From the NCBI GenBank assembly GCA_030706785.1, contig JAUZNW010000018.1, positions 1-33,696 on the forward strand: a stretch of DNA of 33,696 bases, read 5' to 3'. Of the stretch, positions 12,530-33,091 are shown one piece after another. Under the pieces are notes generated by a model. The model had not been told where the DNA came from. It saw nothing but the letters and a program-made list of their open reading frames with translations, and searched no databases. The stretch comes from Bacteroidota bacterium. GTDB taxonomy: Bacteria; Bacteroidota; Bacteroidia; Bacteroidales; VadinHA17. The translations under genes were made by a program, and so were the position numbers. Positions within the stretch are counted from its first letter, which is position 1, and the number at the start of each line of letters is the position of its first letter.

Positions 12530-12539
12530 ATACCGGAAT

Positions 12540-12854: not shown

Positions 12855-12935
12855 AAGTATCACCCACTTTCCCCTACGAGGGTAACATGGAATTTGAATC
12901 TGACTAATTTGGAAAGTATTCATAAAACCTGAAAT

Positions 12936-14201: not shown

Positions 14202-14246
14202 AGTATCATTATTGTTTACCTTGCAGGAGAATAAGCTGATTTGAAT

Positions 14247-17704: not shown

Positions 17705-18362
17705 AAAGCTTTCAGTACTATTAATACTTCTCGGATTTACTTCTTTTGCATATTCACAGGATGATTTTGGGATCTGGTACGGAGCATCTGCAGGGCACAA
17801 GCTAATCGGCAAGCTGGGTCTTGATCTCTCGGGAGAAATAAGAACGCACAATAATGCATCGAGAATTGATGAGATGTTCCTGGAGGGCGGTTTAAGCTAC
17901 AAGTTCAACAAGTATGTTTCCGTGGGCGGGTCGTACAGGTATACCTGGTTTCATGAGGTGACAGATGATTATCATGCAAGGCATAAATGGTTTGCTGACA
18001 TCAACGGTCATCTTCCACTCGGTGATTTCGACATTACGGGACGGATCAGGTTTCAGGAAAGATATAAGACTTACTTCCAGGATGAAAATGACAGGGTGCC
18101 GAAATCGACTCTGAGGTACAGGTTGAAATTATCTTATAACATTCCATCCTGCCCTGTAAATCCATTTGCATTTACTGAAATATTCTGTCCCGTCTCATCA
18201 GACAAAAAGAGATCTGTCGAAAAAGAAAGATTCGCCATCGGTGCGGAATATAAAATCAGCAAGAAACATTCGATTGATGCTGCATACATGTTCCAGCGTG
18301 ATTATATTCCACATCTTTCCGATATCAACCTTATATCTCTCGAATACAATCTGAAATTCTGA
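17685..18362 (+). CDS. DUF2490 outer-membrane beta-barrel protein
   Basis: A 225-residue protein with a signal peptide (residues ~1-24, ending SFAYSQ) and alternating polar/hydrophobic strands with aromatic girdles, ending in LISLEYNLKF, a C-terminal Phe typical of outer-membrane barrels. The pattern (GIWYGASAG, FLEGGLSYKFNKYVSVGGSYRY, RIRFQERYKTYF) is that of DUF2490. The start is uncertain: ATGs at 17685, 17688 and 17694 all overlap the end of the DUF4956 gene, and 17694 (MTIKKLS) gives the neatest signal peptide. As the last gene of the VTC operon it may be the outer-membrane partner of that system. Confidence 0.82.
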   Translation: MMTMTIKKLSVLLILLGFTSFAYSQDDFGIWYGASAGHKLIGKLGLDLSGEIRTHNNASRIDEMFLEGGLSYKFNKYVSVGGSYRYTWFHEVTDDYHARHKWFADINGHLPLGDFDITGRIRFQERYKTYFQDENDRVPKSTLRYRLKLSYNIPSCPVNPFAFTEIFCPVSSDKKRSVEKERFAIGAEYKISKKHSIDAAYMFQRDYIPHLSDINLISLEYNLKF

Positions 18363-18437: not shown

Positions 18438-19796
18438 ATGAAACTCAGAAATACACTTTCTACTGCTGTCTTACTCTTCTCACTGGCATTCACTCAGGCA
18501 TACGGACAGGTCAAACCCGAAAGACAATGGCCCGGCTACAGGGGCTATCTCGCATCGGGGGTCCTTGACAATGCCAACCTTCCTGAAACATTTGATTTCC
18601 AGAAGTCAGTAAATATACTCTGGAAGGTCAGTATTCCCGGAATGGGTATATCAAGCCCATCAATATGGGGAAACAGGCTCTTTATAACAACCGCAGTCAG
18701 TGAAGGTGATAAGGCAGGATTCAAACCCGGGCTCTATGGTGATGTTACACCGGTAAAAGATTCATCCATCCATGAATGGAAAGTCTATTGTATCGATAAG
18801 AAATCCGGGAAAGTAATTTGGGAGAGAACGGCATACAAAGGAATACCCAAAGTGAAGAGGCATCCGAAATCAACCCATGCAAACTCTACAATAGCCACTG
18901 ACGGCAAACATGTGGTTGCATTCTTCGGATCTGAAGGTCTTTATTGCTATAATTATGATGGAAAGCTTCTGTGGCAGAAGAATTTTGGCCTTCTGAGATC
19001 AGCGTTCTTTGTAATGAAAAACGCAGAATGGGAATTTGCATCATCTCCGTTGATCTATGACGGCTCTGTTGTCATCCAGTGTGATGTACTTGAGAATTCA
19101 TTTCTTGCGGCTTATGATGCTGAGACCGGGAAGGAGCTCTGGAAAGTGAGCAGGGATGAATACCCCGGCTGGTGCACACCCAATATATATACCAATGCAG
19201 GGAAAACCTGTGTGGCAGTAAACGGCTACAAGCACCGTGGTGGATATGATTTCAAGACCGGAAAAGAAATATGGAATATGTCGGGAGGAGGCGATATCCC
19301 TATCCCGACCCCTGTTTTAGGGGATAACGTGATCTTTTTCAACAGCGCTCACGGGAAATATTCTCCGATCATGGCTGTGAAAACGAACGCCACAGGAGAT
19401 ATTACCCTTAAGGAAAATGAGACTTCAAATTCTGGCGTGCTGTGGAGCATGCCAAGGGGCGGATCATATATCCAGACAATGCTGCTTTACAGGAATCATC
19501 TTTACAGCCTTAACTGGAACGGAACTATCCAGTGTCTTGATCCTGCCACCGGAAAAGAGATCTACAATGCCAAACTTGGTGCTTCTAAAAGCTTTATGGC
19601 TTCACCGGTTGCTTCTGATGGAAAGATATATATCATTGATGAAACAGGCACGGTTTATATACTGGAGGATGGCGAGACTTTCAAACTGCTCGCAGAAATA
19701 CCAACCAACGAGATTTCACTTACTGCCCCGGCTATAACCGATGGGATAATTTTCTTCAGGACACAGAATTATCTCTATGCAGCAGGTAAAAAATGA
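18438..19796 (+). CDS. secreted quinoprotein-like beta-propeller protein (452 aa)
   Basis: Residues 1-23 form a signal peptide ending AYGQ. The rest is a PQQ-like beta-propeller, visible from repeated blade motifs of the type 'y.cid..tGK..W': VYCIDKKSGKVIWE, LYCYNYDGKLLWQ, LAAYDAETGKELWK, YDFKTGKEIWN and IQCLDPATGKEIYN. The opening 'QWPGYRG' motif is shared with its relatives in this window (WPVFRG, WPRFRG, WRGPGR), which places all of them in one broad family. I see no CXXCH haem site. It is the only propeller gene on the plus strand and converges with the permease gene, leaving 14 bases. BamB-type naming is common for such proteins but not justified. Confidence 0.88.
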   Translation: MKLRNTLSTAVLLFSLAFTQAYGQVKPERQWPGYRGYLASGVLDNANLPETFDFQKSVNILWKVSIPGMGISSPSIWGNRLFITTAVSEGDKAGFKPGLYGDVTPVKDSSIHEWKVYCIDKKSGKVIWERTAYKGIPKVKRHPKSTHANSTIATDGKHVVAFFGSEGLYCYNYDGKLLWQKNFGLLRSAFFVMKNAEWEFASSPLIYDGSVVIQCDVLENSFLAAYDAETGKELWKVSRDEYPGWCTPNIYTNAGKTCVAVNGYKHRGGYDFKTGKEIWNMSGGGDIPIPTPVLGDNVIFFNSAHGKYSPIMAVKTNATGDITLKENETSNSGVLWSMPRGGSYIQTMLLYRNHLYSLNWNGTIQCLDPATGKEIYNAKLGASKSFMASPVASDGKIYIIDETGTVYILEDGETFKLLAEIPTNEISLTAPAITDGIIFFRTQNYLYAAGKK

Positions 19797-19810: not shown

Positions 19811-22800
19811 TTATTCTTTTCTGATGCTGGCTATTAACGCCTGACCGCTTACAGATCTGAGGGTAAGAGTCAGCGCCGTCAATCCGGTAGCGATTATCAG
19901 TATAATCATTATCAGTACGCTTTTCCAGGGGATCTCCGGATTGTTTGCCAGCGAGGGCAGGGTGGCAATAAAAGCTGAGATTGATCCTGTAACCACTCCC
20001 GAAATGAGTATCCGTAACTGTTCCTTCAGGATCATCCCTTTGATTTTTTTTAGTGAAAAACCAGAGGCCATCAGCAATCCGAATTCCCTCTTTCTCTGGT
20101 TGAAATTCCTCAGCAGAATGAATCCCAGACCTACCACTCCCATGATAAGGCCAAGTCCCCCCAGTATTGAAAATACTTTCAGATAAGTATTCGTCACAAC
20201 AAAAAATTGTGACAGACGGTTCCCGGCAGGCTCGAAGTGTGCACCATACTGTGAGAGCCTGTCAGTGAGTGTGTTAATTAATTCCGGAGTCAGACTCTTA
20301 TCCCATTCTGCGAGGAAGACCTGGCTTCCCGATACCGATGGAAAGTACCTGTTCATATTGTCACGGCTTATCAGTACATATCCCTGGAATATTGAAGATT
20401 TCAATCCTGCTGCAATCACAACATTAATTATCCGGCCGCTTTCTGACCGCAGAAACAGGGTATCACCTGTTCTGATCTTGAGTCCGTATTGCAGGACTGT
20501 CTGATCTGCAATACCATAGATTGTCTTGTCGTCCTGAATTATTGAAAGAAATGACCACGGGTTTCCTTCAGCATTGCTCTTGATCCTGGTTGCAAACGAG
20601 AATGCACCTTTTCTGACGAAGGCAGAAGGATCGAGGCCAAGAAGGGGAGGAGAGGTAACATGATTCAGGTTCAGACAGCTTGCATCATCTCCAGCAAGTT
20701 TCGATGCCTGGACGAAGGACAGGTCTCGCAGGTCCGGTTCGTCCAGACCTTCCTTTTTTCTGCCCTCGGGGCTGTTCAGGTTTTCAGGGACAGGAAGTGC
20801 AGTTTCTCCCCAGAGTGCATATCCTCCGGTTCCACCTTCAGGTTTGAGCATACCCTCACTTATGCTCATGCGGTTGAACCCGGTTATTATAACTGCAAAA
20901 AGGCCGGCAGCCAGGAAAACCATCGGGACTATTGCCTGTGATGAATTGAAAGCATAATAGCGGGAAGATAGCTGATCCGTTCTTTGAAAGCTTCCGGTAT
21001 CCGCGTAGGTGCTTCTCAGATAACGGCGCCTTGAGGAAAGGACAAAGGAGAAGAATACTGCTATTCCAGCGATAAACGAGAAGATCATTGAATTCCCCGT
21101 GAAAATAAGGGAGAAAATTATCAGGCAGATAGTCAAAACAAGGAAGCCTATCAGAATCCTGTTATTTTTCCCGACTGACGGCAGCCTATGGGTCAGTGTC
21201 CTGTTCTTGTTTTTAAGCAATGAATGTGATTTTATTCCAACTATTATGAGTATAACTGCGAATGAGATCAGGAATCCATAGAGAATACTGACAGGTTCAA
21301 AAGCTGAAGAAAGAGTATCTGTCTGAACAGCTCCCTGCCAGACCGAATTCAGTGCCCTGATAATAAGGACGTTAAATAAAAGGCCTGTAAATGCGCCTGC
21401 GGCAGTGCCTGCCAGGGCAATAATGCCGGATTCAATGAAAATCAGTTTTCTTATCCACCTGTCAGTGAAACCCAGCGCAACCAGAGTGGAGATTTCTCCT
21501 TTCTTCGAATCATAGAAACCGGAAACGACCAGGATCAGCAGGGCTCCGGCTGACAGGATGATGAAAAATCCGAGACTGAGGAATAGGGTGCTGAAATCAA
21601 CACTCTCGGCTGCAGCTTTGATCGATGCATCCCTGAGATTGATTACGGAGAAGCCCGATTTGTCAGGATTCAGTGATCCGGTCAGTTTTGTCCTGATTTC
21701 ATCCTCAGAAATACCGGCAGGAAACCTGACAGCAGTTGCAGGACCAAAATTGCTTCCCCAGAGTTTTATCCCGGTGGAGTAATCGATGAAGGCTTTTGGT
21801 GTCCCCCTGTACATTTTCCAGTACTCCTCGTCTTTGTCACGGATCCGATCCATCCGGATCGATACTCCGGCATCCCAGTCGGAACATGATTCCTTTCCGG
21901 CAATTCCCGGGAATTCAGGCATGAGAAGTGAATCGGACCAGACGCCACTGATATCGGTGATTCCTGAAACCTTGAAAATGCCGCTTCTTTCCTCAAGCCT
22001 GTTTAGGGGATTGGGAGAATACCATGCTATCCTGATTGAATCTCCTTCCTTTGCAGACAGATCTTTGGCCAGCCACCTGTTAATGATAATTCCGTTCCCT
22101 CCGGGTATTTCAGGATACAACTCTTTGGGAAGGGCTGAAATAAAGGAATATGGCGCCGATCTGCCATTAACTTCATAATTGTTTCCAAGGTAAGTAATGA
22201 TGGGTAGAGAGGAGGGGAGTGCTTTCCTGATCTCCTCCAGGAGCGGCTGGTCAATAAAAATTCGGTCGGAAATGAGTTCTGATCCTCCTGTCTTCGGAAC
22301 ATGCCTGATTGTAAGCCCGATATCTTCAGGTCTCAGGATTTCACCAAGCAATTGGCTGACCTGCGGGGGATCCGGTTCAGTATTGCTGCTGATAAGGATC
22401 CTGTTTATTTTCGGGATCCTTCCACGTGTGTCCGTAAGTTCATCGCGGTTAATAAACACATTCAGAGGAGGTATCTGGCTTATGCCGAGTGAGAAATTAC
22501 CGGTACTGTCCGGCGGAAGGATCCTTCCGGTTTTAAGTACTATAGAACCCGGATTACCTTCATCAGGCGCAAATGGTGCATCTGACGGGATATCGCTTAT
22601 GGGCTTGAATCTGATTATAATATCGTCGCCTGACTTTAGTCCAAGGAATTCAGCAAGTTTTTCATTGATAACAGCTTCACCTTTTCTTATTTCAATTCCG
22701 GCTGAATTCTGGAAGTCAAAAAATGAGTGATCAATGCCAAGGATTTTAACTCCAAGTGCTGTTTGTCCTGTCTGGAAATTCTGGCAATAGCCGTTGATCT

Positions 22801-23071
22801 CAAGTATACCTGTGCAATTTATTCCCAATCTTTCCTTCAGCCTGCCTGCAAGAGAGGGATCGAAGTACCTGTTGACTGTACTTACTACAATACCGGTATT
22901 GCCCAGCTTCCTTACAGATGTGTCCCTGAGGCTTTTTCGCACGGACCCGCCGGTAAGAATCGATCCGGTGATCACCGCAGTAAGGATAAGGATGATAAGC
23001 ACAAGGTACAGCAAGCCGGTCTTACCATGGGAAAGAGATCTTCTGACAATATGCAGCAGAGAGAGTTTCAT
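19811..23071 (-). CDS. large FtsX/MacB-type ABC transporter permease
   Basis: A 1086-residue membrane protein. One helix at ~20-40 is followed by an extracytoplasmic domain of about 450 residues. A block of helices then carries the FtsX-type coupling motif KKGEISTLVALGF (523-535), and after a second soluble domain a last helix block repeats it (QRKREFGLLMASGF). Two FtsX blocks in one chain, with no separate second permease gene, suggest a self-sufficient permease working with the ATPase just upstream. This class moves lipoproteins, peptides or lipids by mechanical pulling rather than through a pore. The ectodomain motif EEYWKMYRGTPKAFI (416-430) is one I recall from large Planctomycetes permeases. 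It is the last gene of the minus-strand train. Confidence 0.87.
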   Translation of the reverse strand: MKLSLLHIVRRSLSHGKTGLLYLVLIILILTAVITGSILTGGSVRKSLRDTSVRKLGNTGIVVSTVNRYFDPSLAGRLKERLGINCTGILEINGYCQNFQTGQTALGVKILGIDHSFFDFQNSAGIEIRKGEAVINEKLAEFLGLKSGDDIIIRFKPISDIPSDAPFAPDEGNPGSIVLKTGRILPPDSTGNFSLGISQIPPLNVFINRDELTDTRGRIPKINRILISSNTEPDPPQVSQLLGEILRPEDIGLTIRHVPKTGGSELISDRIFIDQPLLEEIRKALPSSLPIITYLGNNYEVNGRSAPYSFISALPKELYPEIPGGNGIIINRWLAKDLSAKEGDSIRIAWYSPNPLNRLEERSGIFKVSGITDISGVWSDSLLMPEFPGIAGKESCSDWDAGVSIRMDRIRDKDEEYWKMYRGTPKAFIDYSTGIKLWGSNFGPATAVRFPAGISEDEIRTKLTGSLNPDKSGFSVINLRDASIKAAAESVDFSTLFLSLGFFIILSAGALLILVVSGFYDSKKGEISTLVALGFTDRWIRKLIFIESGIIALAGTAAGAFTGLLFNVLIIRALNSVWQGAVQTDTLSSAFEPVSILYGFLISFAVILIIVGIKSHSLLKNKNRTLTHRLPSVGKNNRILIGFLVLTICLIIFSLIFTGNSMIFSFIAGIAVFFSFVLSSRRRYLRSTYADTGSFQRTDQLSSRYYAFNSSQAIVPMVFLAAGLFAVIITGFNRMSISEGMLKPEGGTGGYALWGETALPVPENLNSPEGRKKEGLDEPDLRDLSFVQASKLAGDDASCLNLNHVTSPPLLGLDPSAFVRKGAFSFATRIKSNAEGNPWSFLSIIQDDKTIYGIADQTVLQYGLKIRTGDTLFLRSESGRIINVVIAAGLKSSIFQGYVLISRDNMNRYFPSVSGSQVFLAEWDKSLTPELINTLTDRLSQYGAHFEPAGNRLSQFFVVTNTYLKVFSILGGLGLIMGVVGLGFILLRNFNQRKREFGLLMASGFSLKKIKGMILKEQLRILISGVVTGSISAFIATLPSLANNPEIPWKSVLIMIILIIATGLTALTLTLRSVSGQALIASIRKE

Positions 23072-23079: not shown

Positions 23080-23757
23080 TCAGGGATTGTCATCCAGGAT
23101 AAGTGTACCCTCCGAGAACTTCATTTTTATGCTCATTTTTCCTGCAAGGCTTGCCGAGTGGGTTGCAAGTATGATTGTAATTCCAAACTCCCTGTTCATT
23201 TCTGTAAGGATGTTCCCAAGATTCTCTGCATTTTTTCTGTCAAGCGATCCGGTAGGCTCATCTGCCAGTAACAGAGAGGGCCTGTTGACCAGCGCCCTTA
23301 CAAGTGCTACCCGCTGAGCTTCCCCGCCCGATATCGTGAAAGGGTATTTTTCGGAAAGATCTGATATCCCGGTCTTTTCCATCATTTTAAATGCATCATT
23401 TGCTTTTTCAGTATACTCAGCCTCAGATAGCTTTGAGGCCATCAATGGCAGCAGGACATTTTCCTTCACTGTCAGATATGGCAACAGAAGGTGATCCTGG
23501 AAAATAAATCCAATGTTCTTATTCCTGTACGAGGCCGATTGTTCTGCATCGTATTCAAGAATCTTGTTGTTCCTGAAAATGATTTCGCCCTTATCGGGGC
23601 TGTCAAGCAGACCTATGATGTTCAGGAGAGTTGTCTTTCCTGAACCCGATGGTCCTGACACAGAAACAGAATCACCTTCATTTACATTAAGGCTGAGATT
23701 ATTCAGGACAATTCCCCTCTGAGGGAATGACTTGGTGATATTAATGATCCTGAGCAT
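23080..23757 (-). CDS. LolD/MacB-type ABC transporter ATP-binding protein
   Basis: A 225-residue ATPase with Walker A GPSGSGKT (35-42), Q-loop Gln at ~87 (FIFQDH), signature SGGEAQ (143-148), Walker B LLLADEP (162-168) and the H-loop His in ILATHSAS. The spacing and the LADEPTGSLD segment are typical of the LolD/MacB/FtsE class, which drives FtsX-type permeases. It starts one base after the glycosyltransferase stop and ends eight bases before the permease start, so all three are translated together. The transported substrate is unknown. Confidence 0.95.
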   Translation of the reverse strand: MLRIINITKSFPQRGIVLNNLSLNVNEGDSVSVSGPSGSGKTTLLNIIGLLDSPDKGEIIFRNNKILEYDAEQSASYRNKNIGFIFQDHLLLPYLTVKENVLLPLMASKLSEAEYTEKANDAFKMMEKTGISDLSEKYPFTISGGEAQRVALVRALVNRPSLLLADEPTGSLDRKNAENLGNILTEMNREFGITIILATHSASLAGKMSIKMKFSEGTLILDDNP

Positions 23758-23758
23758 T

Positions 23759-25048
23759 TTAAACCAGATTTGAATAAATCTCAGACAGGTTTACGGACAT
23801 CCTTTCAGGCGACAGGTTTTCGGCCACACCTTGCATTCCCTGAGAACTGAGCCTCGTACGCAGCTCTCTGTCAAGCAACAGCTTACTTAGGTTGACAGAT
23901 AGTTCGGAAACAGTGTCAGGTGAATAGACAATACCGCCGCCGGTTTTACCTAAAATTTCCGGGAAAGCGCCGGTCGCTGGTTGAACAACCGGAACTCCCG
24001 CACAATTAGCTTCAAGGATGTACAATCCATATCCATCAATCTTTCTGACAGGTACACTCATTATATCTATATTCCTGAAGAATTCCCGTTTGGCATCTCC
24101 ATCGAACTCCGGGTAAATTTTGATTGATGCAGATTGTCCCTGTTCCCTGATCTTGCGGATCTGTTCTTTAATGAATTGCTTGTCTTCACCTGTATAGCCG
24201 CCGCAGACATGCAGGGAGAGATTCTTAAAGTCTTTGGCTTTTTTGAGTTCGAGAAATGCATCGACCATTTTATCAAATCCGTTCATGCTGTTTACCCTGC
24301 ATAGGTATCCTATTGAAGGCGAGTGGGGATTTTCCTGCTTTTCGGCCGTGCATCCTGAGTAGAATCCCAGGGGCACAATCCGTATGTTGCTTCCATCAAG
24401 GCCTGTTTTCTGAATGAATAAGTTCCTGTAGTAGTTGCTTGGGGTTATGAAAGTATCTATATATCTGGCTTCAGCAGCGATCATTTTCCAGGCTTTGGTC
24501 CTGAAAGGTTCCGCCATCACTTCAATCCAGTCATCCTCATTCAGAAGTGAGCAGACGATTTTCACATCCAGTCTCCTTTTTATCTGGCGTGCCAGACCGA
24601 TGATAAGTGCATTTGACAGGTGAATGATGTCAGGTTTTCCGTTGCGTGTAAGGTATTTTACAAGCCTGTCCACCTCATAACGACGAAATGCATTGTCGCC
24701 TTCGATCATATTAAGTGTAAGGTCCTCGAGACCTTCGGTACTTGTTGTACCTGAAAACCTTGAAGCCAGCTTTAGCATCGGTCCCGTGTCCAGGACTTTG
24801 TCAAGCCAGCCTGGCATTTTGCTCAAAAAATGAACCTTTTCTCTCAGGTACATTGAGATCGCACCAAAAAAGACATGACTGTCAAGTTCATTCCCGGTAC
24901 TTTTCCTGTCGGGCGGCAGATAGAGAGGAATAGCTTCCGATGTAATTCCCGGAACCTTCCTGATAGCACGGACAAACAGCATATCCCTGTAACAGTTCCC
25001 GCAATAGAAGGAACCTCCGGATCCTGTAATTAAATAGACTATTTTCAT
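23759..25048 (-). CDS. family 4 glycosyltransferase
   Basis: A 429-residue GT-B fold enzyme expected to move a sugar from a nucleotide donor to an envelope acceptor on the cytosolic side. The N-terminal domain starts with VYLITGSGGSFYCGNCYRD, a GSGG-x2-YCG-x-C-x-RD motif seen in a distinctive GT4 branch. The C-terminal donor-binding domain contains IGYLCRVNSMNGFDKMVDAF, SVPVRKIDGYGLYILEANCAGVPVV and an EX7E-like pair (the Glu of LEANCAG and that of FPEI). It sits between a propeller gene and the ABC ATPase, one base from the latter, so its product is probably used or exported by that transporter. Confidence 0.88.
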   Translation of the reverse strand: MKIVYLITGSGGSFYCGNCYRDMLFVRAIRKVPGITSEAIPLYLPPDRKSTGNELDSHVFFGAISMYLREKVHFLSKMPGWLDKVLDTGPMLKLASRFSGTTSTEGLEDLTLNMIEGDNAFRRYEVDRLVKYLTRNGKPDIIHLSNALIIGLARQIKRRLDVKIVCSLLNEDDWIEVMAEPFRTKAWKMIAAEARYIDTFITPSNYYRNLFIQKTGLDGSNIRIVPLGFYSGCTAEKQENPHSPSIGYLCRVNSMNGFDKMVDAFLELKKAKDFKNLSLHVCGGYTGEDKQFIKEQIRKIREQGQSASIKIYPEFDGDAKREFFRNIDIMSVPVRKIDGYGLYILEANCAGVPVVQPATGAFPEILGKTGGGIVYSPDTVSELSVNLSKLLLDRELRTRLSSQGMQGVAENLSPERMSVNLSEIYSNLV

Positions 25049-25068
25049 ATCAATTGTTCTCTCTTACT

Positions 25069-25092
25069 CCCCTTCTCACCCGGGAGAAGGGG
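25069..25092. repeat. intercistronic C/T-rich hairpin
   Basis: CCCCTTCTC (25069-25077) and GAGAAGGGG (25084-25092) form a perfect 9-bp stem with a 6-base loop, in the 57-base gap between the 369-residue propeller gene and the glycosyltransferase. There is no T run, so mRNA processing, stabilisation or a mobile repeat is as likely as termination. Confidence 0.5.
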
Positions 25093-25105
25093 CCGGGGGA
25101 TGAGG

Positions 25106-26215
25106 TTATTTTACCCCAAAAGCCATTAACCTTCCGTCTTCAGCAAGAATGTAAAACCTGTCTTTAACAACTGCCGGAGAACTGCTCACGGCAGCACCTG
25201 CATTGAAGTTCCACAGTTTTTTTCCGTCTGCAAGACTGAGGATAAATATGTTCCCGTCCGTGCTTCCGAACAACACCTTCGAAGAGCTGACCACTGCAGA
25301 GCCCGTTATCCTGCCGTTTGTCCTGTATTTCCACACCTGCTTTCCCGTAATTATGTTGTAACAATAGAGATATTTATCCTCGTTGCCAATCAGCACTACA
25401 TTTTTTCCGACTGCAGGAGTCGCAAGGAATGCACCTGAACCTTCATTAGCAGGGACCACCCAAAGTAACTTCCGTTTATTAAAATCAAGGCAATAAAAAT
25501 TGCCATCATAATCACCAAAGAATGCCCTCCCTTCTGAAAGGGCAGGGGATGCGGCTATATAAATGCCGATCTGTACAGTGTCTTTTTCTTTACCGGTGAC
25601 CTGATCGGTCATTCTTACTATTCCATCACATCCTGCAAATAAAATCGTGTTGTTGTAAACTGCCGGGGCTCCATTGACGTAATTATTAGTCTCAACCTTC
25701 CAGAGCAGTTTGCCGGTTGCAGGGTCAACGCAATGAAGATAGTAATCATAACTGCCCACAACGATGCCGGAACGATTTCCTGAAGACCAGGAATTTGCTG
25801 AGCCGGCGATTTGATTATCTGTCCTGTAAGACCATAAAAGCTTGCCTGTTAATTTATTAAAAGCCCGCAAAACTCCATCGGAAGAGCCGGCTATTACCTT
25901 ATCAGAAAAAACCAGCGGGGGCGATTCGATAGAGTTGCCACATTCATATTTCCATTTGAGCTTCCCGTCAGAAGTAACTGCAAAAAGAGTCCCTTTTTCA
26001 TTGCCAAAAAAAACAAGCCCTTCACTGATAACAGGCGAGGATTTGGTAATGACCCCGCTCCTATAAACCCATGAAACATATGGTGTTGACGGGAATTCAA
26101 AAGCGGTATAGCCCGACAGATCATTCTTTCCCCTGAAGACCGGCCAGTCATTGCTCTGAGCCTGCAACCGGATGACAATAAAGAGAAAAGGTAATATTTT
26201 GCTAAAAAACCTCAT
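25106..26215 (-). CDS. secreted quinoprotein-like beta-propeller protein (369 aa)
   Basis: The start is the ATG at 26215, giving a signal peptide (MRFFSKILPFLFIVIRLQAQ). The frame stays open to 26305, but that extension is encoded by a repeat and would bury the signal peptide. Eight blades are easily seen, among them LFAVTSDGKLKWKY, LRAFNKLTGKLLWSY, LHCVDPATGKLLWKV, FYCLDFNKRKLLWVV, LYCYNIITGKQVWKY and IFILSLADGKKLWNF, so the fold is a regular 8-bladed PQQ-like propeller. The mature protein opens with WPVFRG. It has no haem motif and no membrane anchor, and probably acts in the periplasm as partner or binding protein for the Fe-S module encoded upstream. Confidence 0.88.
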   Translation of the reverse strand: MRFFSKILPFLFIVIRLQAQSNDWPVFRGKNDLSGYTAFEFPSTPYVSWVYRSGVITKSSPVISEGLVFFGNEKGTLFAVTSDGKLKWKYECGNSIESPPLVFSDKVIAGSSDGVLRAFNKLTGKLLWSYRTDNQIAGSANSWSSGNRSGIVVGSYDYYLHCVDPATGKLLWKVETNNYVNGAPAVYNNTILFAGCDGIVRMTDQVTGKEKDTVQIGIYIAASPALSEGRAFFGDYDGNFYCLDFNKRKLLWVVPANEGSGAFLATPAVGKNVVLIGNEDKYLYCYNIITGKQVWKYRTNGRITGSAVVSSSKVLFGSTDGNIFILSLADGKKLWNFNAGAAVSSSPAVVKDRFYILAEDGRLMAFGVK

Positions 26216-26278
26216 ATAAACTTTCCGGATTTCTGCATATTTTAAGGATCGTCCTTTAATTTCCCAATTAGTTTCACC

Positions 26279-26366
26279 ACTAAATCCCCCTGAGGCTTCG
26301 CTCATGTCAGGCCTGAAGGGGACTTTTGGCTGAGGGTAAAATCCCTTTTAGGGGGAATGGGGTAAA
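26279..26366. repeat. dispersed palindromic repeat between two propeller genes
   Basis: In the 157-base gap between the membrane-anchored propeller and the secreted one lies a repeat with flanking CCCCCT/AGGGGG arms (TCCCCCT near 26285, AGGGGGA near 26351) and inner arms CCTGA and TTCAGG-like segments. This composition is typical of Bacteroidota intergenic repeats. It encodes the spurious upstream extension of the neighbouring gene. Confidence 0.5.
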
Positions 26367-26372
26367 ATATAC

Positions 26373-28064
26373 CTATTTTTCTGCAATACAGTACAAGTTT
26401 TGCCTTCCCCTTATGTAGATTCTGCCTTCTGAAAATACCGGTGTGCAATCTGTGTTTTCTCCAAGAGATGAGTTGCCAGCGATTTTAAGCTTGCCCGCTG
26501 CTTCGACTATATGCATTATACCTGTACGGTCAAGCATCCAGACCTTATTATCAGCGACCATTACAGAGGCATAAAATGGATTTCCGAAATAATGTGTCCA
26601 CAGGGTATCACCCTTTTCGGCATTGTAGCACGCAGCGTCACCGTTTCCTGTTGTTATGAAAAAGAAATTTTCCGTTGCAGCAGGGCTCGATACATCAGAT
26701 GTATACGTATTATCCTGCCAGACAGTCGCACCGGTTTTTCCGGGCTTGAGAGCAATTATACTGTAATAATCGGTAACTGCGTATACCAGTTTGCTGTTTG
26801 CTGCCAGGGAAGGGGCAACATCACCTGATACTCCCGGGAGGCTCCAAAGTTCCTGTCCGGTTACAGGATCATACGATGACACGTTGGGGTTCCCGTTTAT
26901 GAGAAGCTGTGGCTGACCATCATATGTTGCAAGGACAGGTGATGAATTTACAGGCCGTCCTTGTCTTTGAGTTTCCCATTTCTGCTCACCGGTGGCTAAG
27001 TCAAAACCCAAAAGGGATAATTTATTCTGGCTGTCATACTGGACAAGCAATAATTTACCATATATCAAAAGTGAAGCAGAATATGCATATGTTCCATGAG
27101 GTACACCTACATTTTTCCCCCATTTAAGCTTCCCGTTATGATCGTAGCAAACAAGATTTCCATTACCGAATACCGCACAGATCACATCCTTGTTAACTGC
27201 TGCAGTCGGAACCGCCATCCCGGCTTCGGTATCCGATTCGGGTATTTCTGCTGATGCTCCGGGGAATCCGGTTCCGGAACCTGACCATAAGATCTTACCA
27301 TTGTTTTTATCGATGCAGTATAATTCAAAGTCAGCGCCTTCAGCACCTGTAATGAATAACCTGTCTCCCCAGATAACCGGTGAGCTCTTCCCCGGTTTGG
27401 GATTGGGGATTTTCCATTTGATATTCTTCCCATCAGTTCCGTTCCATTCTGTCGGAAAGCCTGTTCCGCCGGCAATTCCAAGGCTTCCTTCACCCCTGAA
27501 AAACGGGAAATTAACATCTCCCGGAAGATTTGCTATTACAGGAGTACCTGAAACTTCTTTGGCTTCAGGTGCCTGAGAAGTCTTTCCCGGAGCAGGCAAC
27601 TCCTTCCTGAGCGCAAAGGAAGAAACCAGGGCGATTATGGCGATTGCAACTGCAGATATTATAAGGTAGCGACGGTTTTTTTCCCTTTCAGAATTAATAT
27701 CCGGTCTGTCGGGACGCAGTGAACGGGCAGGCTTTTCGCTACCGGCGACCAGCCTCTGGAACAGAACGAAAATGAAGGCTCCGGCAAGAAGAAGATAGGA
27801 ACCGGTCTCAACCTGCCATCTTGACGAGAAATAAGCTTTCCTTGCCATCAGATCGATCGCCCGGACCTGTTCGGCCTTATCCCTGTTTTCAGGATCCTTA
27901 TCAAACTGATCCTTGACAGACTGAATTGAAGGACTGTTTATCGGATCAAGCGTCTTTAACTGTACCAGGCTGAAGATCATTGTGATGGCAACGAAAAGAG
28001 TGAATATACCAGCCGCCAGGCTGATACTTTTGAAAATTCTGATTTCTTTCTCTGAAAACTTCAT
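26373..28064 (-). CDS. membrane-anchored quinoprotein-like beta-propeller protein (563 aa)
   Basis: Three hydrophobic helices occupy the N-terminal third (~11-32, 86-106 and 131-149). A basic cytosolic loop between the second and third (RPDRPDINSEREKNRR) puts the C-terminal propeller (~180-563) in the periplasm. Blade motifs include FELYCIDKNNGKILWS, LVCYDHNGKLKWGK, SYDPVTGQELWS and AACYNAEKGDTLWTH. The propeller opens with FPFFRGEGSLG, matching the 'WP.FRG' starts of its paralogues. It begins three bases after the NapH-like gene stop, closer than any other propeller, so it is the best candidate for a direct membrane partner of the Fe-S proteins. It has no CXXCH. Membrane-bound glucose dehydrogenases also join helices to a propeller, but their catalytic motifs are not seen. 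Confidence 0.87.
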   Translation of the reverse strand: MKFSEKEIRIFKSISLAAGIFTLFVAITMIFSLVQLKTLDPINSPSIQSVKDQFDKDPENRDKAEQVRAIDLMARKAYFSSRWQVETGSYLLLAGAFIFVLFQRLVAGSEKPARSLRPDRPDINSEREKNRRYLIISAVAIAIIALVSSFALRKELPAPGKTSQAPEAKEVSGTPVIANLPGDVNFPFFRGEGSLGIAGGTGFPTEWNGTDGKNIKWKIPNPKPGKSSPVIWGDRLFITGAEGADFELYCIDKNNGKILWSGSGTGFPGASAEIPESDTEAGMAVPTAAVNKDVICAVFGNGNLVCYDHNGKLKWGKNVGVPHGTYAYSASLLIYGKLLLVQYDSQNKLSLLGFDLATGEQKWETQRQGRPVNSSPVLATYDGQPQLLINGNPNVSSYDPVTGQELWSLPGVSGDVAPSLAANSKLVYAVTDYYSIIALKPGKTGATVWQDNTYTSDVSSPAATENFFFITTGNGDAACYNAEKGDTLWTHYFGNPFYASVMVADNKVWMLDRTGIMHIVEAAGKLKIAGNSSLGENTDCTPVFSEGRIYIRGRQNLYCIAEK

Positions 28065-28067
28065 CGT

Positions 28068-29351
28068 TTAAGCTTTTACCTTGACTGGACAAAATTTGAA
28101 GCATTTGCCGCAACTGTAACACCGCCCTCGGTCAGGTTCATACTCAGTCCTTACATTCCTGACTGTTGGCATAAATAAAAAGATTCCGAGCGAGAGGCCA
28201 AGGAAGATCCCAACCCATGGGGCTCCCTTTCTGAACCTCTCAATGATCAAATGTTCCTCATTGAATAATTCATCTTCAGTCTTGCCGGAGGAGAAGAAAG
28301 CCACTGCAGCTTTTGAAGACGCTTTAATGCCCTTTTCCTTTTCAAGCCTGATCTCCTTTGCAAGTCTTACATTCTTGTTCATGCCTGAAAGCACCGGAGC
28401 AAGGTTGTAAAGGAAAACAGCACTTCCGAAAGCAAGAATGAGTATTATTAATAAATACTTCAGTGAGCCTTTCCATTTATTAACCGGTTGCTCTACAGAT
28501 GCAGGAGCGGGATCTGACTGCAGGATGGCATCGTAAGGGCAGCCTGATTCACACAACCGGCAAATCCTGCAGTCAGCAGGTGTAATAGTAACGTGTTTTA
28601 AGGAGAACCTTGAGAATATATTCTGCAAAACTCCATAAGGACACAGGTACCTGCAGTAAGGACGGTTTACGAAGATCCCGACAATGAGAAGAAGAGACCC
28701 GAATATAATCATTGTATATGGGGCGTCGATCCTGAACATGCCGACAAACGGATCGAAGCGGCAAATTGCGAATTCACTCCCGGTTGCGGCAAAAAGGATT
28801 GCAAGACCAAGGTACACAAAGGGTATGGCACCGAGAACTGCTTCTACTTTCTTTGGGACCTTGATCTGCCTGAATCCGGTTAGCTCCTGGATTGCACCCA
28901 TAGGGCATACTCCCGCGCAGAAAAGTCTTCCTGAGAATAATGCGAATGCCAGCGGAATCAGGAAAAACAGGAGTGCGGAGAGAGGAATTGAGTAATTTGA
29001 ATTGAAGAGTGCAAGAGATACATTCTGTATAGAACCGATTGCACAAATGCAACCCTGCCTGTAGAATCCGAAATAACCAAGTGAAAATGCAGAGACCCAC
29101 AGTATCCCCTGTCTCGATCTTTTAACTACTGCCATCCAGTAGGTGACCACCAGAGCAGCAACCAGGACCGCTACATCCATATATTCCCACATCGGCCCGC
29201 GCTGGTTCAGAAGTTGCCGTTCAGGGAAGGAATAACCGCTTTCAAATTCCGGCCTTGGAAATCTCTGCTCCTGAGCAAAAAGGACCGAATGCCAGATGAG
29301 CAAAACTCCAATTATAAAATAAGGAAGGTATTTTTTGATTTTCCAGATCAT
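28068..29351 (-). CDS. NapH/NosR-like polytopic membrane 4Fe-4S protein
   Basis: A 427-residue inner-membrane electron carrier with about seven hydrophobic helices. It has the two CxxxCP motifs of NapH/NosR proteins (C145-C149 in FCAGVCPMGAIQE and C233-C237 in YCRYLCPYGVLQN), an earlier CIC at 101-103 in a similar setting (CICAIGSIQN), and two complete ferredoxin clusters: C261/264/267/271 in CRICRLCESGCP, and C411/414/417/421 in CYSCGKCFKFCP at the extreme C-terminus. The segment CRFDPFVGMF (198-207) is also NosR-like. Members of this class take electrons from the quinol pool or a flavodoxin-level donor. No FMN-binding domain is present. It lies 12 bases after the NapG-like gene. Confidence 0.9.
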   Translation of the reverse strand: MIWKIKKYLPYFIIGVLLIWHSVLFAQEQRFPRPEFESGYSFPERQLLNQRGPMWEYMDVAVLVAALVVTYWMAVVKRSRQGILWVSAFSLGYFGFYRQGCICAIGSIQNVSLALFNSNYSIPLSALLFFLIPLAFALFSGRLFCAGVCPMGAIQELTGFRQIKVPKKVEAVLGAIPFVYLGLAILFAATGSEFAICRFDPFVGMFRIDAPYTMIIFGSLLLIVGIFVNRPYCRYLCPYGVLQNIFSRFSLKHVTITPADCRICRLCESGCPYDAILQSDPAPASVEQPVNKWKGSLKYLLIILILAFGSAVFLYNLAPVLSGMNKNVRLAKEIRLEKEKGIKASSKAAVAFFSSGKTEDELFNEEHLIIERFRKGAPWVGIFLGLSLGIFLFMPTVRNVRTEYEPDRGRCYSCGKCFKFCPVKVKA

Positions 29352-29363
29352 CAGTATTCTGAT

Positions 29364-30029
29364 TTAACAACTGACATTTTCTTCTCCTGTCGTGTATTTT
29401 CTACGGAAAGTAGCTTCCTGTTTCTTTCTTGACCGCACAACTGCAAGAGGAACTACCCTGGGTGTGCCTTTTAGTTCTTTCCTTACATAGGGTCCATCTG
29501 CAGGTACCCTGACCACGGCATCAGACGGGCATCCCCGAGCAATTGAACACTGGTTGCAATTTAGGCAGAGATTATGCATTATCTGGAGGTACAACGATCC
29601 GTTCCCAAAATCGTAGCATCCCTTAACGCACTTTGAACACCCGTCACAGAGTTTTTCATCGATCGTATATTCGAAATAGGGCTCCTCCACAAACTTGCGT
29701 TTTATCGCACCGGTAGGACAAAGCTGGTCCTCTGCTGCTGTGCTGTACTTTTTGGCACCCTGACGAAGAAATCCGGGACAGAAATCGCAGTAACCGCACA
29801 TCTGAAATGCGTTCGTGCACTTTACAGCTGATGGTGTCATAATGCATAAGGTTCTGCATTGCTCACAGAATGTGCATTTATACGGATCTATCTGCCATAC
29901 ATATCCTTTAGCGTCTGCTTTCTTTGAGAGCACTATTGGCAAGGCAAGAACAGGAGCTGCCATTGCAATCCTGCCGACAGTCCTGACAAAATTCCGCCTT
30001 GTTCCGGCTTTCGGTCTTTCTTCTGACAT
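29364..30029 (-). CDS. Tat-exported NapG-like polyferredoxin
   Basis: A 221-residue protein starting with a twin-arginine signal (TRRNFVRTVG, then a hydrophobic stretch and ADA-K near residue 40), so it is folded with its clusters and sent to the periplasm. Four cluster sets are visible: C52/55/58/62, C78/81/84 with C71 or C104 completing it, C128/131/134/138, and C155/158/161/167. This matches NapG in size and cluster number. The frame extends to an ATG at 30056, but that would overlap the upstream gene and place nine extra residues before the Tat motif. The ATG at 30029, two bases after the previous stop, is better. It pairs with the NapH-like gene as an electron-transfer unit on the outer face of the inner membrane. 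No NapA, NapB or NrfA is present. Confidence 0.9.
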   Translation of the reverse strand: MSEERPKAGTRRNFVRTVGRIAMAAPVLALPIVLSKKADAKGYVWQIDPYKCTFCEQCRTLCIMTPSAVKCTNAFQMCGYCDFCPGFLRQGAKKYSTAAEDQLCPTGAIKRKFVEEPYFEYTIDEKLCDGCSKCVKGCYDFGNGSLYLQIMHNLCLNCNQCSIARGCPSDAVVRVPADGPYVRKELKGTPRVVPLAVVRSRKKQEATFRRKYTTGEENVSC

Positions 30030-30031
30030 AA

Positions 30032-30214
30032 TTACCTTTGTAAGAATATTGAACAATCAGTTTTACCGGAACAAATACCTTTGCCCGGGCAGGATGAACA
30101 ATCGCTGCCTGTTACAACTTTGTTTCCCGTAATAAGCGCAATTCCGGCAAGCAGGCCAAAAAGCACATAACGAATAATTCTTTTTACAAAATCAGCCCTG
30201 TCCATATAATTCAT
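30032..30214 (-). CDS. 60-residue membrane protein with a four-cysteine tail
   Basis: A very short gene, easily missed. It starts MNYMDRADFVKRIIRY, continues with one hydrophobic helix (VLFGLLAGIALIT) and ends with a cysteine cluster CSSCPGKGICSGKTDCSIF. The Cys spacing (C-x2-C-x6-C-x5-C) could bind a cluster or metal, or form disulfides. The start may be the second ATG (30205), which puts RADFVKR nearer the N-terminus, a weak echo of a Tat motif. It ends two bases before the NapG-like ATG and is clearly co-translated, so it is probably a small subunit of the same redox complex. I cannot name a family. I have a vague memory of similar small Cys-tail proteins beside ferredoxin genes in other Bacteroidota. 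Confidence 0.75.
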   Translation of the reverse strand: MNYMDRADFVKRIIRYVLFGLLAGIALITGNKVVTGSDCSSCPGKGICSGKTDCSIFLQR

Positions 30215-30234
30215 TTATTTAATAAACCGCATCC

Positions 30235-30254
30235 ATTCCCTCCGGGGAGGGAAT
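30235..30254. repeat. perfect palindrome between propeller and redox genes
   Basis: ATTCCCTCC (30235-30243) and GGAGGGAAT (30246-30254) are exact complements around two bases. On the minus strand the palindrome follows the propeller stop codon directly and precedes the small cysteine gene by about 20 bases. It may partly terminate transcription or protect the mRNA, giving different levels of the propeller and the redox proteins. Confidence 0.5.
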
Positions 30255-30255
30255 C

Positions 30256-31713
30256 TTAGAGCTTCTTTCCTATATCAATGCACACCATATTCCTTGAATC
30301 CCTCAGTATAAGGTATCTGCCTGCAAGTGCCATTGGGCTCCAGGCATCAATAGCATCCATTATTTTGTGGCTAGCCAGCTTTAATGCTTTTGAACCATCA
30401 ATCCTGAAAAGGTACAGTGTCCCTTCATCATCAAGAAGATATAATTTACTTCCGCTCAGGATAAACGGCCCCATTCCTTTTCCGAACCTGGTTTCCTTTC
30501 CACTTGACCAGACAGGAGTTATAACGTCGGATTTGTTATAGCAGACCAGCTGCCCTTTAAGAGGACCAGCATTTTCAGGCAATACCGCCCATAGCTGATT
30601 GCCGTACATTATAGGTGTTTGCTGCTCGCTTGCAATTCCTCCTGAAGACTTATGCTGATCGCTGACAGCTGCTGTATAACCCGATCCATTAAAGGTTATT
30701 TTAATTCTTGCACCTCCTGCACCATAACTTCCGAAAACAAGAAATTCGTCATTACCCAGGGAGACAGGGGAAGAGACAGTAATTGAAGGGCTCCATTCAG
30801 TCGTTTTCCACAATAATTTCCCTATGTCGTCACCTTCTGCAGAAACTCCGCAGACTCCACCAAGTGCAGCATATACATACATCTTCTTACCGTGGATAAT
30901 CATAGGCATGATTGAAGTGTGTGACATTCTCAATGAATCACGGTTAGGGGTTTCCCAGGCTACCTTCCCGGTGGCGCAATCAACCCCTATCATCAGGGCT
31001 TTCCCTCCGGGAGCGATTATTGCCATGTCATGATCAATAAGGGGACACTGTCCACAATAAAAATCAGGAGTTATTTTCCCCTTAACAGTTCCCGGAATCC
31101 CGTATTCCTTTTCCAGATCTTTTGTCCAGAGAAGATTGCCATTAACCGGATCGACACACATAACATGTGATCTCGGACCTATCGTTACGACATATTTATC
31201 GGTTACTGACGGAATTGTACGGGAATATCCATGATTTCGCTTGAATTCAACAGTATACCATCTTCTCCATAGCTCGTTTCCCGATTTAAGAGAAAAGCAC
31301 CTGAGCATATCGGCTTTTCTTTTTTCATTATAATCGAGAACGTATACCCGGCCGTTCATAACTGCCGGACCGGCATAACCTTCCCCGAGAGATACCTGCC
31401 ATCTTACCGGAGGACCAGAGGTATCCCATTCTTCGGCCAGCGGTGTCTGATCCTTGCTTATATTATCGTAGTCCGCGCCCCTGAATCGCGGCCAGCTTCC
31501 CGGTAATACCTCATCAATTTTATTAAGTGTATCAAAGTTTTTGCCGATAACAACCGAGTCCGAAACCTGCTTCTGAGGGGGACGGTTATCCATTCCCGGG
31601 ACTCTTTCGACCACCTTGTAAGAGGGTACAGCAGAGATCCACCACAGGAATGCGGCAACGAAAACTACAATTGCAGATCCGATTATAACTCTATTCCTGC
31701 TGATTGATGACAT
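30256..31713 (-). CDS. membrane-anchored quinoprotein-like beta-propeller protein (485 aa)
   Basis: One N-terminal helix (~9-28, VIIGSAIVVFVAAFLWWISA) after a short basic tail (SRNR) acts as signal anchor, placing the rest in the periplasm. After a linker (~30-70) the propeller starts with GSWPRFRGADYDNIS. Blade motifs include LRCFSLKSGNELWRRW, VMCVDPVNGNLLWTK, MIGVDCATGKVAWET and LYLFRIDGSKAL. A CxxC (C220, C223 in DFYCGQCPLI) is not followed by His, so it is not a c-type haem site. It could be a disulfide or metal pair. It lies 41 bases upstream of the redox trio and is probably transcribed with it. Confidence 0.87.
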   Translation of the reverse strand: MSSISRNRVIIGSAIVVFVAAFLWWISAVPSYKVVERVPGMDNRPPQKQVSDSVVIGKNFDTLNKIDEVLPGSWPRFRGADYDNISKDQTPLAEEWDTSGPPVRWQVSLGEGYAGPAVMNGRVYVLDYNEKRKADMLRCFSLKSGNELWRRWYTVEFKRNHGYSRTIPSVTDKYVVTIGPRSHVMCVDPVNGNLLWTKDLEKEYGIPGTVKGKITPDFYCGQCPLIDHDMAIIAPGGKALMIGVDCATGKVAWETPNRDSLRMSHTSIMPMIIHGKKMYVYAALGGVCGVSAEGDDIGKLLWKTTEWSPSITVSSPVSLGNDEFLVFGSYGAGGARIKITFNGSGYTAAVSDQHKSSGGIASEQQTPIMYGNQLWAVLPENAGPLKGQLVCYNKSDVITPVWSSGKETRFGKGMGPFILSGSKLYLLDDEGTLYLFRIDGSKALKLASHKIMDAIDAWSPMALAGRYLILRDSRNMVCIDIGKKL

Positions 31714-31837
31714 GCAATTGCCAATTGATGTTTTTTACTTTGTGGATCTGTTGGTCTTCTCAGTGCAGCAAAAATATAAAGAACTTAGAAATAGGTCCAA
31801 AGAAGAAACACAGAGTTCCACAAAAAGAGGTTAAGAA

Positions 31838-33091
31838 TTAACTTGCTTTTATGTTATAAACTGCCAGGTAATCACCGTGCCTCAGGAAAAGTCTTCCTTT
31901 ATTTATCACAGGGTGAGCCCAGTACGGGCCTGTACCCTTGGTGACTTTGAATGAGCTTATTATGTCAAGCTTTTCAGGATCAGGCCTTACAAGCGCTACA
32001 TTTCCTCCTTTTTCCTCATAAAGATAAAGAAGTCCGTCATTTGCGATAATCGATCCTTTGTTGTTCCAAAGAGTGATCCACATAGTTTTGCCTGTGGTCC
32101 AGTCAACACAGATCCACCTGCCCATATTGTTATTGTCGTGAGTGGAACTGTAGATATAATTCCCGATCAGTACCATTCCTCCGACATGAGGATTGATATC
32201 AGGATTTTTCCAGACCAGTTCTGGATCCTTCCCGTCGAAATTTATCTTTATCTTGGCTGAAGTCTGTCCGTATCCATTTGCAGCAAAAAGGAAACCATCC
32301 CTGTAAATCGGCGTCTGAATATAGTTTTTTTCACCTTTCTTGTCAGCATTGACAGATGCAAAATTGAATTTCCAGAGGATCCTGCCGTTTGACGCATCCA
32401 CGCCGATTATCCATGTCGGGGTATGTGTTATGATAATTTTGGTTCCATTATTTTCAATAAGAAGAGGATTTACGTATTGGGCACCTTCGTTTAATGAAGG
32501 AGCTTCCCATGCAACCTTCCCGTCCTCGGTATTGAAAGCAACCATGGCTGCCATACCTCCCCCGGGAGTCACAACCACTTTATTGTCGACAACGACTGGC
32601 GATTCGGTGATTCCAAACCTCGGAACGTTTGCATTGTATTTCTTGTAATAATCTACTGTCCACAAGATCTTGCCTGCGGTGGAGACACACGATAATTCAC
32701 CAGATCCGCTTACAACGAAAACCTTCCCCTGGTAAAATGTTGGAGTACAACGGCTTTCAGGAGCGCTCTGGACTTTTGACATAGTGCCATATTCAATGTC
32801 CCATAATTTCTTTCCGTTTTGTGAAAAAGCTGTTAAAACATCTTTGTCACCCCTGATGCCGGTTATATAAATTGCATCATTGGTAATAGTCGCACTGGAA
32901 TAGCCCAACCCAATGCCATTGGCTTCCCAGATCAAAGCCGGTCCGTTTTCCGGCCATGATTTAAGCAGTCCTGTTTCATTGTAAATACCTGTTCTTCCTG
33001 GTCCTCGCCATCCGATTTCCTGTCCGTAAAAACTGGCGGAGGTCAAAAGAAGTACCACGGCAATAGCAATCTTTATAAGATTATTCTTCAT
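31838..33091 (-). CDS. secreted quinoprotein-like beta-propeller protein (417 aa)
   Basis: Residues 1-23 form a signal peptide (ending ASFYGQ). The mature protein begins EIGWRGPGRTGIYNETGLLKSWPENGP, an opening I associate with a propeller family common in Planctomycetes, Verrucomicrobia and Bacteroidota. Blade motifs are LTAFSQNGKKLWDI, LSCVSTAGKILWTV, MVAFNTEDGKVAWEA, IIGVDASNGRILWKF and WICVDWTTGKTMWIT. It has no haem motif and no anchor. It is the first gene of the minus-strand train, with a 474-bp gap upstream and 124 bases to the next gene, so the main promoter of the cluster probably lies just above 33091. Confidence 0.87.
   Translation of the reverse strand: MKNNLIKIAIAVVLLLTSASFYGQEIGWRGPGRTGIYNETGLLKSWPENGPALIWEANGIGLGYSSATITNDAIYITGIRGDKDVLTAFSQNGKKLWDIEYGTMSKVQSAPESRCTPTFYQGKVFVVSGSGELSCVSTAGKILWTVDYYKKYNANVPRFGITESPVVVDNKVVVTPGGGMAAMVAFNTEDGKVAWEAPSLNEGAQYVNPLLIENNGTKIIITHTPTWIIGVDASNGRILWKFNFASVNADKKGEKNYIQTPIYRDGFLFAANGYGQTSAKIKINFDGKDPELVWKNPDINPHVGGMVLIGNYIYSSTHDNNNMGRWICVDWTTGKTMWITLWNNKGSIIANDGLLYLYEEKGGNVALVRPDPEKLDIISSFKVTKGTGPYWAHPVINKGRLFLRHGDYLAVYNIKAS

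Follow-up and report, generated by a model that had tools for sequence, protein, structure and literature searches.

NapGH is the quinol dehydrogenase of the periplasmic nitrate reductase, nos clusters comprise NosG/NosH, NosZ and NosDFY, and ExaA is a quinoprotein propeller. Meheust et al. (2021, PMC8238504) describe modular extracytosolic electron-transfer systems with NapH-like (PF12801) proteins, including clusters with the alcohol oxidase ExaA; the partners of such systems can be oxidases or reductases. The present study concerns a stretch of 33,696 nucleotides (the window) of contig JAUZNW010000018.1 from a bacterium of the order Bacteroidales, in which ten genes combine a NapH-like membrane protein and an exported four-cluster ferredoxin with four propeller proteins, a glycosyltransferase and a transporter. 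The component parts are of known kinds, the NapH-like module being used in many settings, and the combination is apparently undescribed; no description of this gene cluster was found in the open-access literature, going by titles and the beginnings of abstracts. There is about an even chance that the ten gene products form a single electron conduit that spans the envelope and leads to propellers in the periplasm; in the window this conduit would work without its usual NADH/ferredoxin input. Somewhat more tentatively, the genes would belong to a new class of transmembrane electron-bifurcating or electron-confurcating complex, spread across several phyla, in which a Bfu core is connected through the NapH-like protein and the four-cluster ferredoxin to propellers without recognised haem, flavin or pyrroloquinoline quinone (PQQ), the clade of the window being a derived form rewired to another donor after loss of the core.

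The ten genes run head to tail in a single direction on the minus strand, from 33091 to 19811, with intergenic gaps of 124, 41, 2, 12, 3, 67, 57, 1 and 8 bases, as calculated from the coordinates. According to the list of open reading frames (ORFs) and Pfam, the train begins with P1 (31838-33091), an exported PQQ_2 (BamB-like) propeller of 417 aa with one hydrophobic N-terminal segment, and P2 (30256-31713), a membrane-anchored propeller of 485 aa with one hydrophobic segment. They are followed by an anchored Cys protein of 60 aa, taken from the ORF list (30032-30214), a periplasmic ferredoxin of the twin-arginine translocation (Tat) type with Fer4 domains and a NapG-like build (ORF 29364-30056, ATG start at 30029), the NapH-like polytopic Fe-S membrane protein of 427 aa (28068-29351, Fer4_5) and P3 (26373-28064), a propeller of 563 aa with three hydrophobic N-terminal segments. 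P4 (25106-26305) is a secreted propeller with an ORF of 399 aa and a likely start at codon 31; if this inner ATG is the start, the gap before P4 is 157 bases, not 67. The last three genes, assigned by Pfam, code for a GT4 glycosyltransferase (23759-25048), a LolD-like ATP-binding cassette (ABC) ATPase (23080-23757, also found by NCBIfam) and an FtsX-type permease of 1086 aa (19811-23071, also in the ORF list). The initial annotation, made from the letters alone, had described a co-directional train ending at 23080 and had named seven genes, all of which were found again at the same place and strand; it left the glycosyltransferase, the ATPase and the permease unnamed, and the train in fact continues after 8 bases with the permease gene.

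The arrangement recurs in relatives. The loci compared surround the 80 best of 219 ferredoxin matches in GTDB; the ferredoxin was called in 77 of them, L066, L088 and L110 being left out since gene calling missed it, and each linkage count is restricted to loci whose flanks are long enough. The NapH-like gene lies downstream of the ferredoxin in 71/71 loci and P3 in 62/66, P2 precedes the ferredoxin in 58/63, and P4 is linked in 38/52, with median gaps within the cluster of -14 to 68 bases. An adjacent P2 is missing from L032, L057, L083, L084 and L086, and an adjacent P3 from L057, L084, L103 and L109. The genomes of five such loci were searched: P2 and P3 occur elsewhere in that of L084 and P3 elsewhere in that of L109, the genome of L057 gave only a fragment of P2 and no match to P3, and those of L086 and L103 gave no match to P2 and P3, respectively. 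The gene order is shared by Bacteroidales and by records as distant as those with the labels Planctomycetota, KSB1 and Aminicenantes. By record titles, the top of the list consists mostly of Bacteroidales and other Bacteroidota, followed by Planctomycetota, Verrucomicrobia, KSB1, Aminicenantes, Latescibacterota and others; the relatives are mostly metagenome bins, and single taxon labels may be wrong.

On a genome scale, P2 and a strong ferredoxin match occur together in 58 of 146 related genomes (the window's own included), the ferredoxin alone in four, P2 alone in one and neither in 83, with P2 counted at E<=1e-60 and the weak ferredoxin matches of G062, G070 and G136 scored as none. The corresponding Fisher p of 1e-34 is a guide only, as the genomes are not independent. 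The distribution within the order of the window is patchy, because 57/344 genomes match at E<=1e-30 in a single-protein search; a phylum-wide alignment count of 1/395, for which at most eight candidates were scored per genome, is not taken as absence.

Family scans of 26 window proteins revealed no nitrate, nitrite or nitrous-oxide reductase families, and the window genes called by script contain no CxxCH motif, in agreement with the initial statement that the window is free of NapA, NosZ, NrfA and c-type cytochromes. Outside the train, the scanned window genes include no redox or cytochrome family other than a lysine-aminomutase-like radical-SAM (S-adenosylmethionine) gene. The scan of relatives covered 76 of 82 unlabelled same-strand neighbours (at least 150 aa, within 9 kb), the omitted six all touching a locus end and 93 opposite-strand neighbours lying outside it; no molybdopterin reductase or cytochrome c appeared among the best 25 of 122 families. 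The odd inserts in L057, L083, L084, L086 and L096, considered as possible linked reductases, proved unrelated. CxxCH occurs in 17 called genes of the relatives, namely 12 coding for NapH-like proteins, three for polyprenyl synthases and two unlabelled (L074 and L102), and in the 12 NapH-like proteins it belongs to the ferredoxin motif CxxCxxCHxxCP or CxxCHxxC. The initial annotation had proposed one recurrent, uncharacterised extracytoplasmic redox system with propellers in the place of a reductase, to be checked by comparing gene neighbourhoods, and the recurrent linkage to the propellers supports it. Two observations had been named as refuting it: Fe-S homologues usually found without propellers, and a standard reductase linked in most relatives. 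Neither was borne out, as the homologues examined mostly adjoin propellers and no such reductase was found among the scanned portion of the neighbours.

As in NapGH, an exported four-cluster ferredoxin and a NapH-like membrane protein are encoded by neighbouring genes; unlike NapGH, the two proteins score far below the curated cut-offs or are unmatched, no linked NapA was found, and the extra partners are others. The alignment of 77 ferredoxins has 17 invariant Cys, a number that suffices for four [4Fe-4S] clusters, and the window ferredoxin keeps all of them. It gave no match at E<=0.01 to the NapG/MauM models TIGR00397 and PRK09476, which are matched by 17/33 (best E 7.1e-05) and 22/33 (best E 1.6e-07) of the relatives' ferredoxins, respectively. 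The NapH-like protein contains two CxxxCP motifs, two ferredoxin-type Cys motifs and an invariant GCxC, and with 62 bits versus 22 for PF12801 (Fer4_5) and seven hydrophobic segments it is a polytopic protein of the PF12801 type; its 60.1 bits for TIGR02163 (NapH) do not reach the cut-off of 213.05. Because the window proteins fall short of the curated cut-offs, the names NapG and NapH are used here for build and not for membership. In the 60-aa protein, C39, C42 and C48 are invariant in 24 rows, the window protein having C54 as well, and a Tat-like RR motif occurs in 4/24 rows (Aminicenantes and Latescibacterota records). The linkage expected for this protein does recur, but is less general than that of the propellers (recognised in 23/74 loci, very short genes being easily missed).

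The cluster resembles the systems of PMC8238504 in having a NapH-like membrane Fe-S protein beside an extracytoplasmic oxidoreductase, here a putative one. The clusters described there carry an FMN (flavin mononucleotide)-binding domain, whereas none was recognised in the present cluster, no FMN-binding family being matched at E<=0.01 by any of its ten proteins. It further differs from them by the four-cluster ferredoxin, by having more than one BamB-like propeller and by the Bfu-like module that most of the relatives examined carry.

This module, which resembles the electron-bifurcating Bfu enzymes (HydABC type), lies between P3 and P4. One of its proteins, about 800 aa long, is a NuoE-NuoF fusion that bears two additional [4Fe-4S] motifs and is present in 45/57 loci; the other is a NuoG-like partner, present in 40/53, whose long form, as scanned in L063, has a GltD-like flavin adenine dinucleotide (FAD) part. 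The best solved matches of the fusion are NfnB, chains labelled HoxF and HydB of bifurcating hydrogenases, and a core of the BfuB/BfuC type (NuoE and NuoF parts with extra C-terminal [4Fe-4S] motifs) was found in relatives, as seen from the domains of L054. According to Schut et al. (2022, PMC9304861), bifurcating BfuB is marked by His and Cys residues of cluster B2. At that place H-x4-C-x4-C is invariant in 45/45 aligned NuoEF sequences (at least 700 aa; 50 called); between the His and the first Cys the enzyme of that paper has one residue more. As a control, three NuoF proteins were taken from the genome to which the window belongs: the HydB-like one has all three residues, the presumed complex I subunit has the His and the first Cys and ends there, and the third has none. 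The B2-type ligand signature is suggestive, and the putative Bfu-like assignment rests mainly on the domains and the solved matches. The relatives resemble the Bfu family in the solved matches of NuoE-NuoF and in a His and Cys that may correspond to those of B2, and their NuoG-like partner resembles BfuA. Full clusters include L087 from Carboxylicivirga sp. M1479 and L095 from Mangrovibacterium marinum DSM 28823. Unlike in Bfu, the third substrate would be on the far side of the membrane, reached via the NapH-like protein, and the window itself has no module; the terms 'NapH' and 'PQQ' do not occur in the main text of PMC9304861. The module is accompanied by N309 (for example L034:8926-9855), a propeller of the NHL type that is about 310 aa long and has a CCNP motif, the CC of which is present in 62/62. 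N309 lies upstream of the ferredoxin in 60/68 loci and was found in 40/40 loci with the module and 5/13 without it (window included, phylogeny uncorrected).

In the window only 67 bases lie between P3 and P4, and the BfuBC core is absent from the cluster. No fused NuoEF was found in the own genome, whose NuoF proteins, judged by their neighbours, belong to complex I and to hydrogenases; a search for N309, run without a positive control, gave no match. On a FastTree tree built from 63 rows, the window among them, of ferredoxin, NapH-like protein and P3, the group of the window, with nine members, forms a single clade with a local support of 0.996; in all nine P4 directly follows P3, and the sister pair L040/L041, joined at a node with support 1.0, has the module. 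The nine (eight for P2) also group on single-gene trees with support of 0.70-0.98. L033, on a contig too short to judge, joins the clade on the ferredoxin and P2 trees, and L038, where P4 directly follows P3, joins it on the ferredoxin tree. Because the nine loci without the module form one clade and their sister pair carries it, the trees place a single loss of the module in the lineage of the window. Of five other loci without an adjacent module, L083 and L060 are found elsewhere in the tree and L057, L084 and L109 are not in it; a long NuoG-like frame in L060 suggests a gene-calling fault there.

Pfam supports PQQ_2 in all four window propellers, of which P1 is sometimes duplicated in relatives. 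P2 is the most conserved, with 37 invariant positions among 62 sequences, including D127, Y128, D135, R138, R159, H161, R165, C186, Y219 and H265; between the window and five loci sampled from other phyla, identity is 38-48% for P2, 49-54% for the ferredoxin and 26-36% for P3. The structural model of P2 has a mean predicted local distance difference test score (pLDDT) of 91.6, with the segment 159-162 alone below 50 and somewhat weaker stretches at 31-50 and 201-220; in terms of this model, the conserved loop 159-162 may become ordered on binding a partner or ligand. In fold, P2 comes closest to tetrathionate hydrolase and BamB, with TM-scores of 0.49-0.57 when normalised by query length and with 13-16% identity to the 50 listed fold matches, and the weak profile matches of P2 also point to these two proteins, alongside quinoprotein alcohol dehydrogenases. 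Besides this low identity, P2 differs from tetrathionate hydrolase and BamB in being anchored and in having conserved loop residues of its own. Among the propellers it is the best candidate for the working part of the system, probably acting in the periplasm as a partner or as an enzyme. All 64 aligned P3 rows share D71 and R75, which lie between the first and the second hydrophobic segment.

A vicinal Cys pair is typical of PQQ-dependent dehydrogenases. No such pair was found in P1-P4 of the window; among P2 relatives a CC pair occurs in 24/62, in 17 of them at the C186 column. The gathering score of 26.7 bits for the PQQ dehydrogenase propeller domain PF01011 is passed by P4 (43.8), for which PQQ_2 and ACSF4-type models score higher, and not by P2 (16.7) or P3 (24.2), P1 not being listed. 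None of the four reaches the NCBIfam cut-offs for PQQ enzymes, the best TIGR03075 score being 66.1 bits (P4) versus 480.05, nor that of BamB TIGR03300 (best 143.7 bits, P4, versus 285.2). A search for pqqC gave no match in the genome, nor did it in the control genomes. A role of the propellers as PQQ enzymes is disfavoured by the NCBIfam cut-offs, the missing Cys pair and the fold of P2, less so for P4 on account of PF01011, and their original description as quinoprotein-like is weak. The cluster shares with nos clusters the combination of NapG/H-like proteins, a propeller and an ABC transporter; unlike in nos clusters, no NosZ family match was found in the scans, the transporter is of the LolD/FtsX type and the propellers are of the PQQ_2/BamB-like kind. 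The plus strand of the window encodes another PQQ_2 propeller of 452 aa (18438-19796), convergent with the FtsX gene.

Through its glycosyltransferase and its LolD/FtsX pair the system is linked to the envelope. Among the 39 loci flanked by 9 kb on either side, LolD is present in 30, the glycosyltransferase in 22 and FtsX in 25, some being cut off by flank ends. Near the N-terminus the GT4 proteins (at least 350 aa, window included) carry YCxNCxRD in 31/32 and YCxxCxRD in 32/32 sequences; to our knowledge, the YCxNCxRD motif is unusual for GT4. Directly or closely upstream of the cluster, 16/55 loci have radical-SAM, polyprenyl-synthase and squalene-cyclase-like genes, or some of them, and a squalene-cyclase-like gene was itself counted in 16/55. 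Loci of gut and marine Bacteroidota (L071, L074, L087, L095 and others) encode, 5' of P1/P2, a radical-SAM protein, a DUF116-polyprenyl synthase fusion, a prenyltransferase-like toroid and a squalene-cyclase-like protein. In 12 loci P4 is followed by LolD with no glycosyltransferase between, and 12/12 carry terpenoid-type genes upstream, which makes a lipid substrate plausible, at least for loci with these genes; L050 has the glycosyltransferase and terpenoid-type genes together. No cyclase was found in the own genome of the window, in a search run without a positive control.

On the proposed conduit, cytoplasmic NADH and ferredoxin would, in full clusters, donate electrons through the Bfu-like module to the NapH-like protein; in the clade of the window another donor would take over, for example quinol, a soluble ferredoxin or an unlinked NuoF/HydB protein. 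Electrons would cross the membrane via the Fe-S clusters of the NapH-like protein and be received by the exported four-cluster ferredoxin, with the small Cys protein perhaps also taking part; the endpoint would be the anchored P2, acting on a periplasmic substrate. P3 may anchor the assembly and P1 and P4 may be accessory propellers, and the glycosyltransferase and LolD/FtsX would make, load or move an envelope component needed or modified by the redox step. Several points weigh against this scheme. The direction is a judgement: Bfu enzymes are described as reversible (PMC9304861), and NapH-like systems serve oxidases and reductases alike (PMC8238504). P2 has no assigned active site, and propellers of the BamB type can be plain scaffolds; the ferredoxin occurs without P2 in 4/62 genomes, and its predicted structure is poor (pLDDT 56). 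No FMN-binding protein or cytochrome was recognised to complete the path, and the B2-type His is not exclusive, since the own-genome NuoF taken for complex I has it with the first Cys. N309, present in all 40 module loci, is gone from the window, where the system may do less or something else, and FtsX is faster-diverging than the core genes.

Electrons could also flow inwards, one propeller being a periplasmic dehydrogenase that delivers through the ferredoxin and the NapH-like protein to the cytoplasm, in module-bearing relatives to NAD+ and ferredoxin. The reversibility of Bfu enzymes, the NapH-like clusters with ExaA alcohol oxidase and the PF01011 score of P4 agree with this reading, but every propeller falls short of the NCBIfam PQQ-enzyme cut-off and the four window propellers have no vicinal Cys pair. 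Inward flow is considered unlikely. The form given in the initial annotation, a NapGH-type quinol dehydrogenase feeding a propeller in the place of the terminal reductase, is in keeping with the NapH-like domains and with the clade of the window, which lacks a linked Bfu-like module and so leaves quinol as a possible donor. However, quinol as the default donor is not supported, since most relatives examined carry the Bfu-like NADH/ferredoxin module instead, which was lost in the window's clade; the window ferredoxin, moreover, does not match the NapG models at E<=0.01. This explanation appears rather improbable.

A role in envelope biogenesis is unlikely too. Here the propellers would be BamB-like scaffolds, and GT4 and LolD/FtsX would handle a lipid, glycolipid or lipoprotein whose reductive maturation takes its electrons from the redox chain; in many Bacteroidota of gut and marine origin, this substrate may be made by the radical-SAM, polyprenyl-synthase and cyclase genes upstream. 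The frequent linkage of the envelope genes, the fold of P2 nearest to tetrathionate hydrolase and BamB, and the terpenoid-type genes in all 12 loci lacking the glycosyltransferase, as if lipid-modifying steps interchange, favour this role, whereas the restriction of the terpenoid genes to part of the loci and the failure to find a cyclase in the own genome (again without a positive control) speak against it. That the cluster is a decaying remnant, its genes drifting in the window's clade after loss of the module, is highly improbable and largely refuted. N309 is missing from several clade members and FtsX has a non-synonymous divergence (dN) of 0.45-0.50, as decay would have it; by contrast, dN is 0.13-0.24 in 16/16 comparisons of P2, ferredoxin, NapH-like protein and P3 with four relatives, the synonymous divergence (dS) being saturated or at least 1.9 and thus rough, and the 17 conserved Cys of the ferredoxin are intact. 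For P1, dN is 0.15-0.18, except for a value of 0.54 with L031, which probably stems from comparison with a second copy; for P4, the glycosyltransferase, LolD and the 60-aa protein it is 0.24-0.36. These rates indicate that the core genes of the window are under constraint and not decaying. The gene set very likely does something useful, because its order is kept between phyla and P2 is conserved almost as strongly as the ferredoxin.

Elsewhere in the window, VTC-domain, DUF4956 and DUF2490 genes follow one another at 16252-18362, and two D-Ala-D-Ala-ligase-like ATP-grasp genes adjoin the lysine-2,3-aminomutase-like radical-SAM gene at 101-3295. The region 8637-15614 is devoted to rhamnose use, with an alpha-L-rhamnosidase on the minus strand; RhaT, RhaA and an FGGY kinase are encoded on the other strand.

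Having lost the module, the clade of the window is a natural experiment for telling which part of the system supplies the electrons. In PMC9304861, 17 BfuB clades are left unassigned. If the genes described here do encode a Bfu complex reaching the periplasm, they could give a function to some of these clades, and they would represent periplasmic electron transfer without cytochromes or flavinylated proteins.

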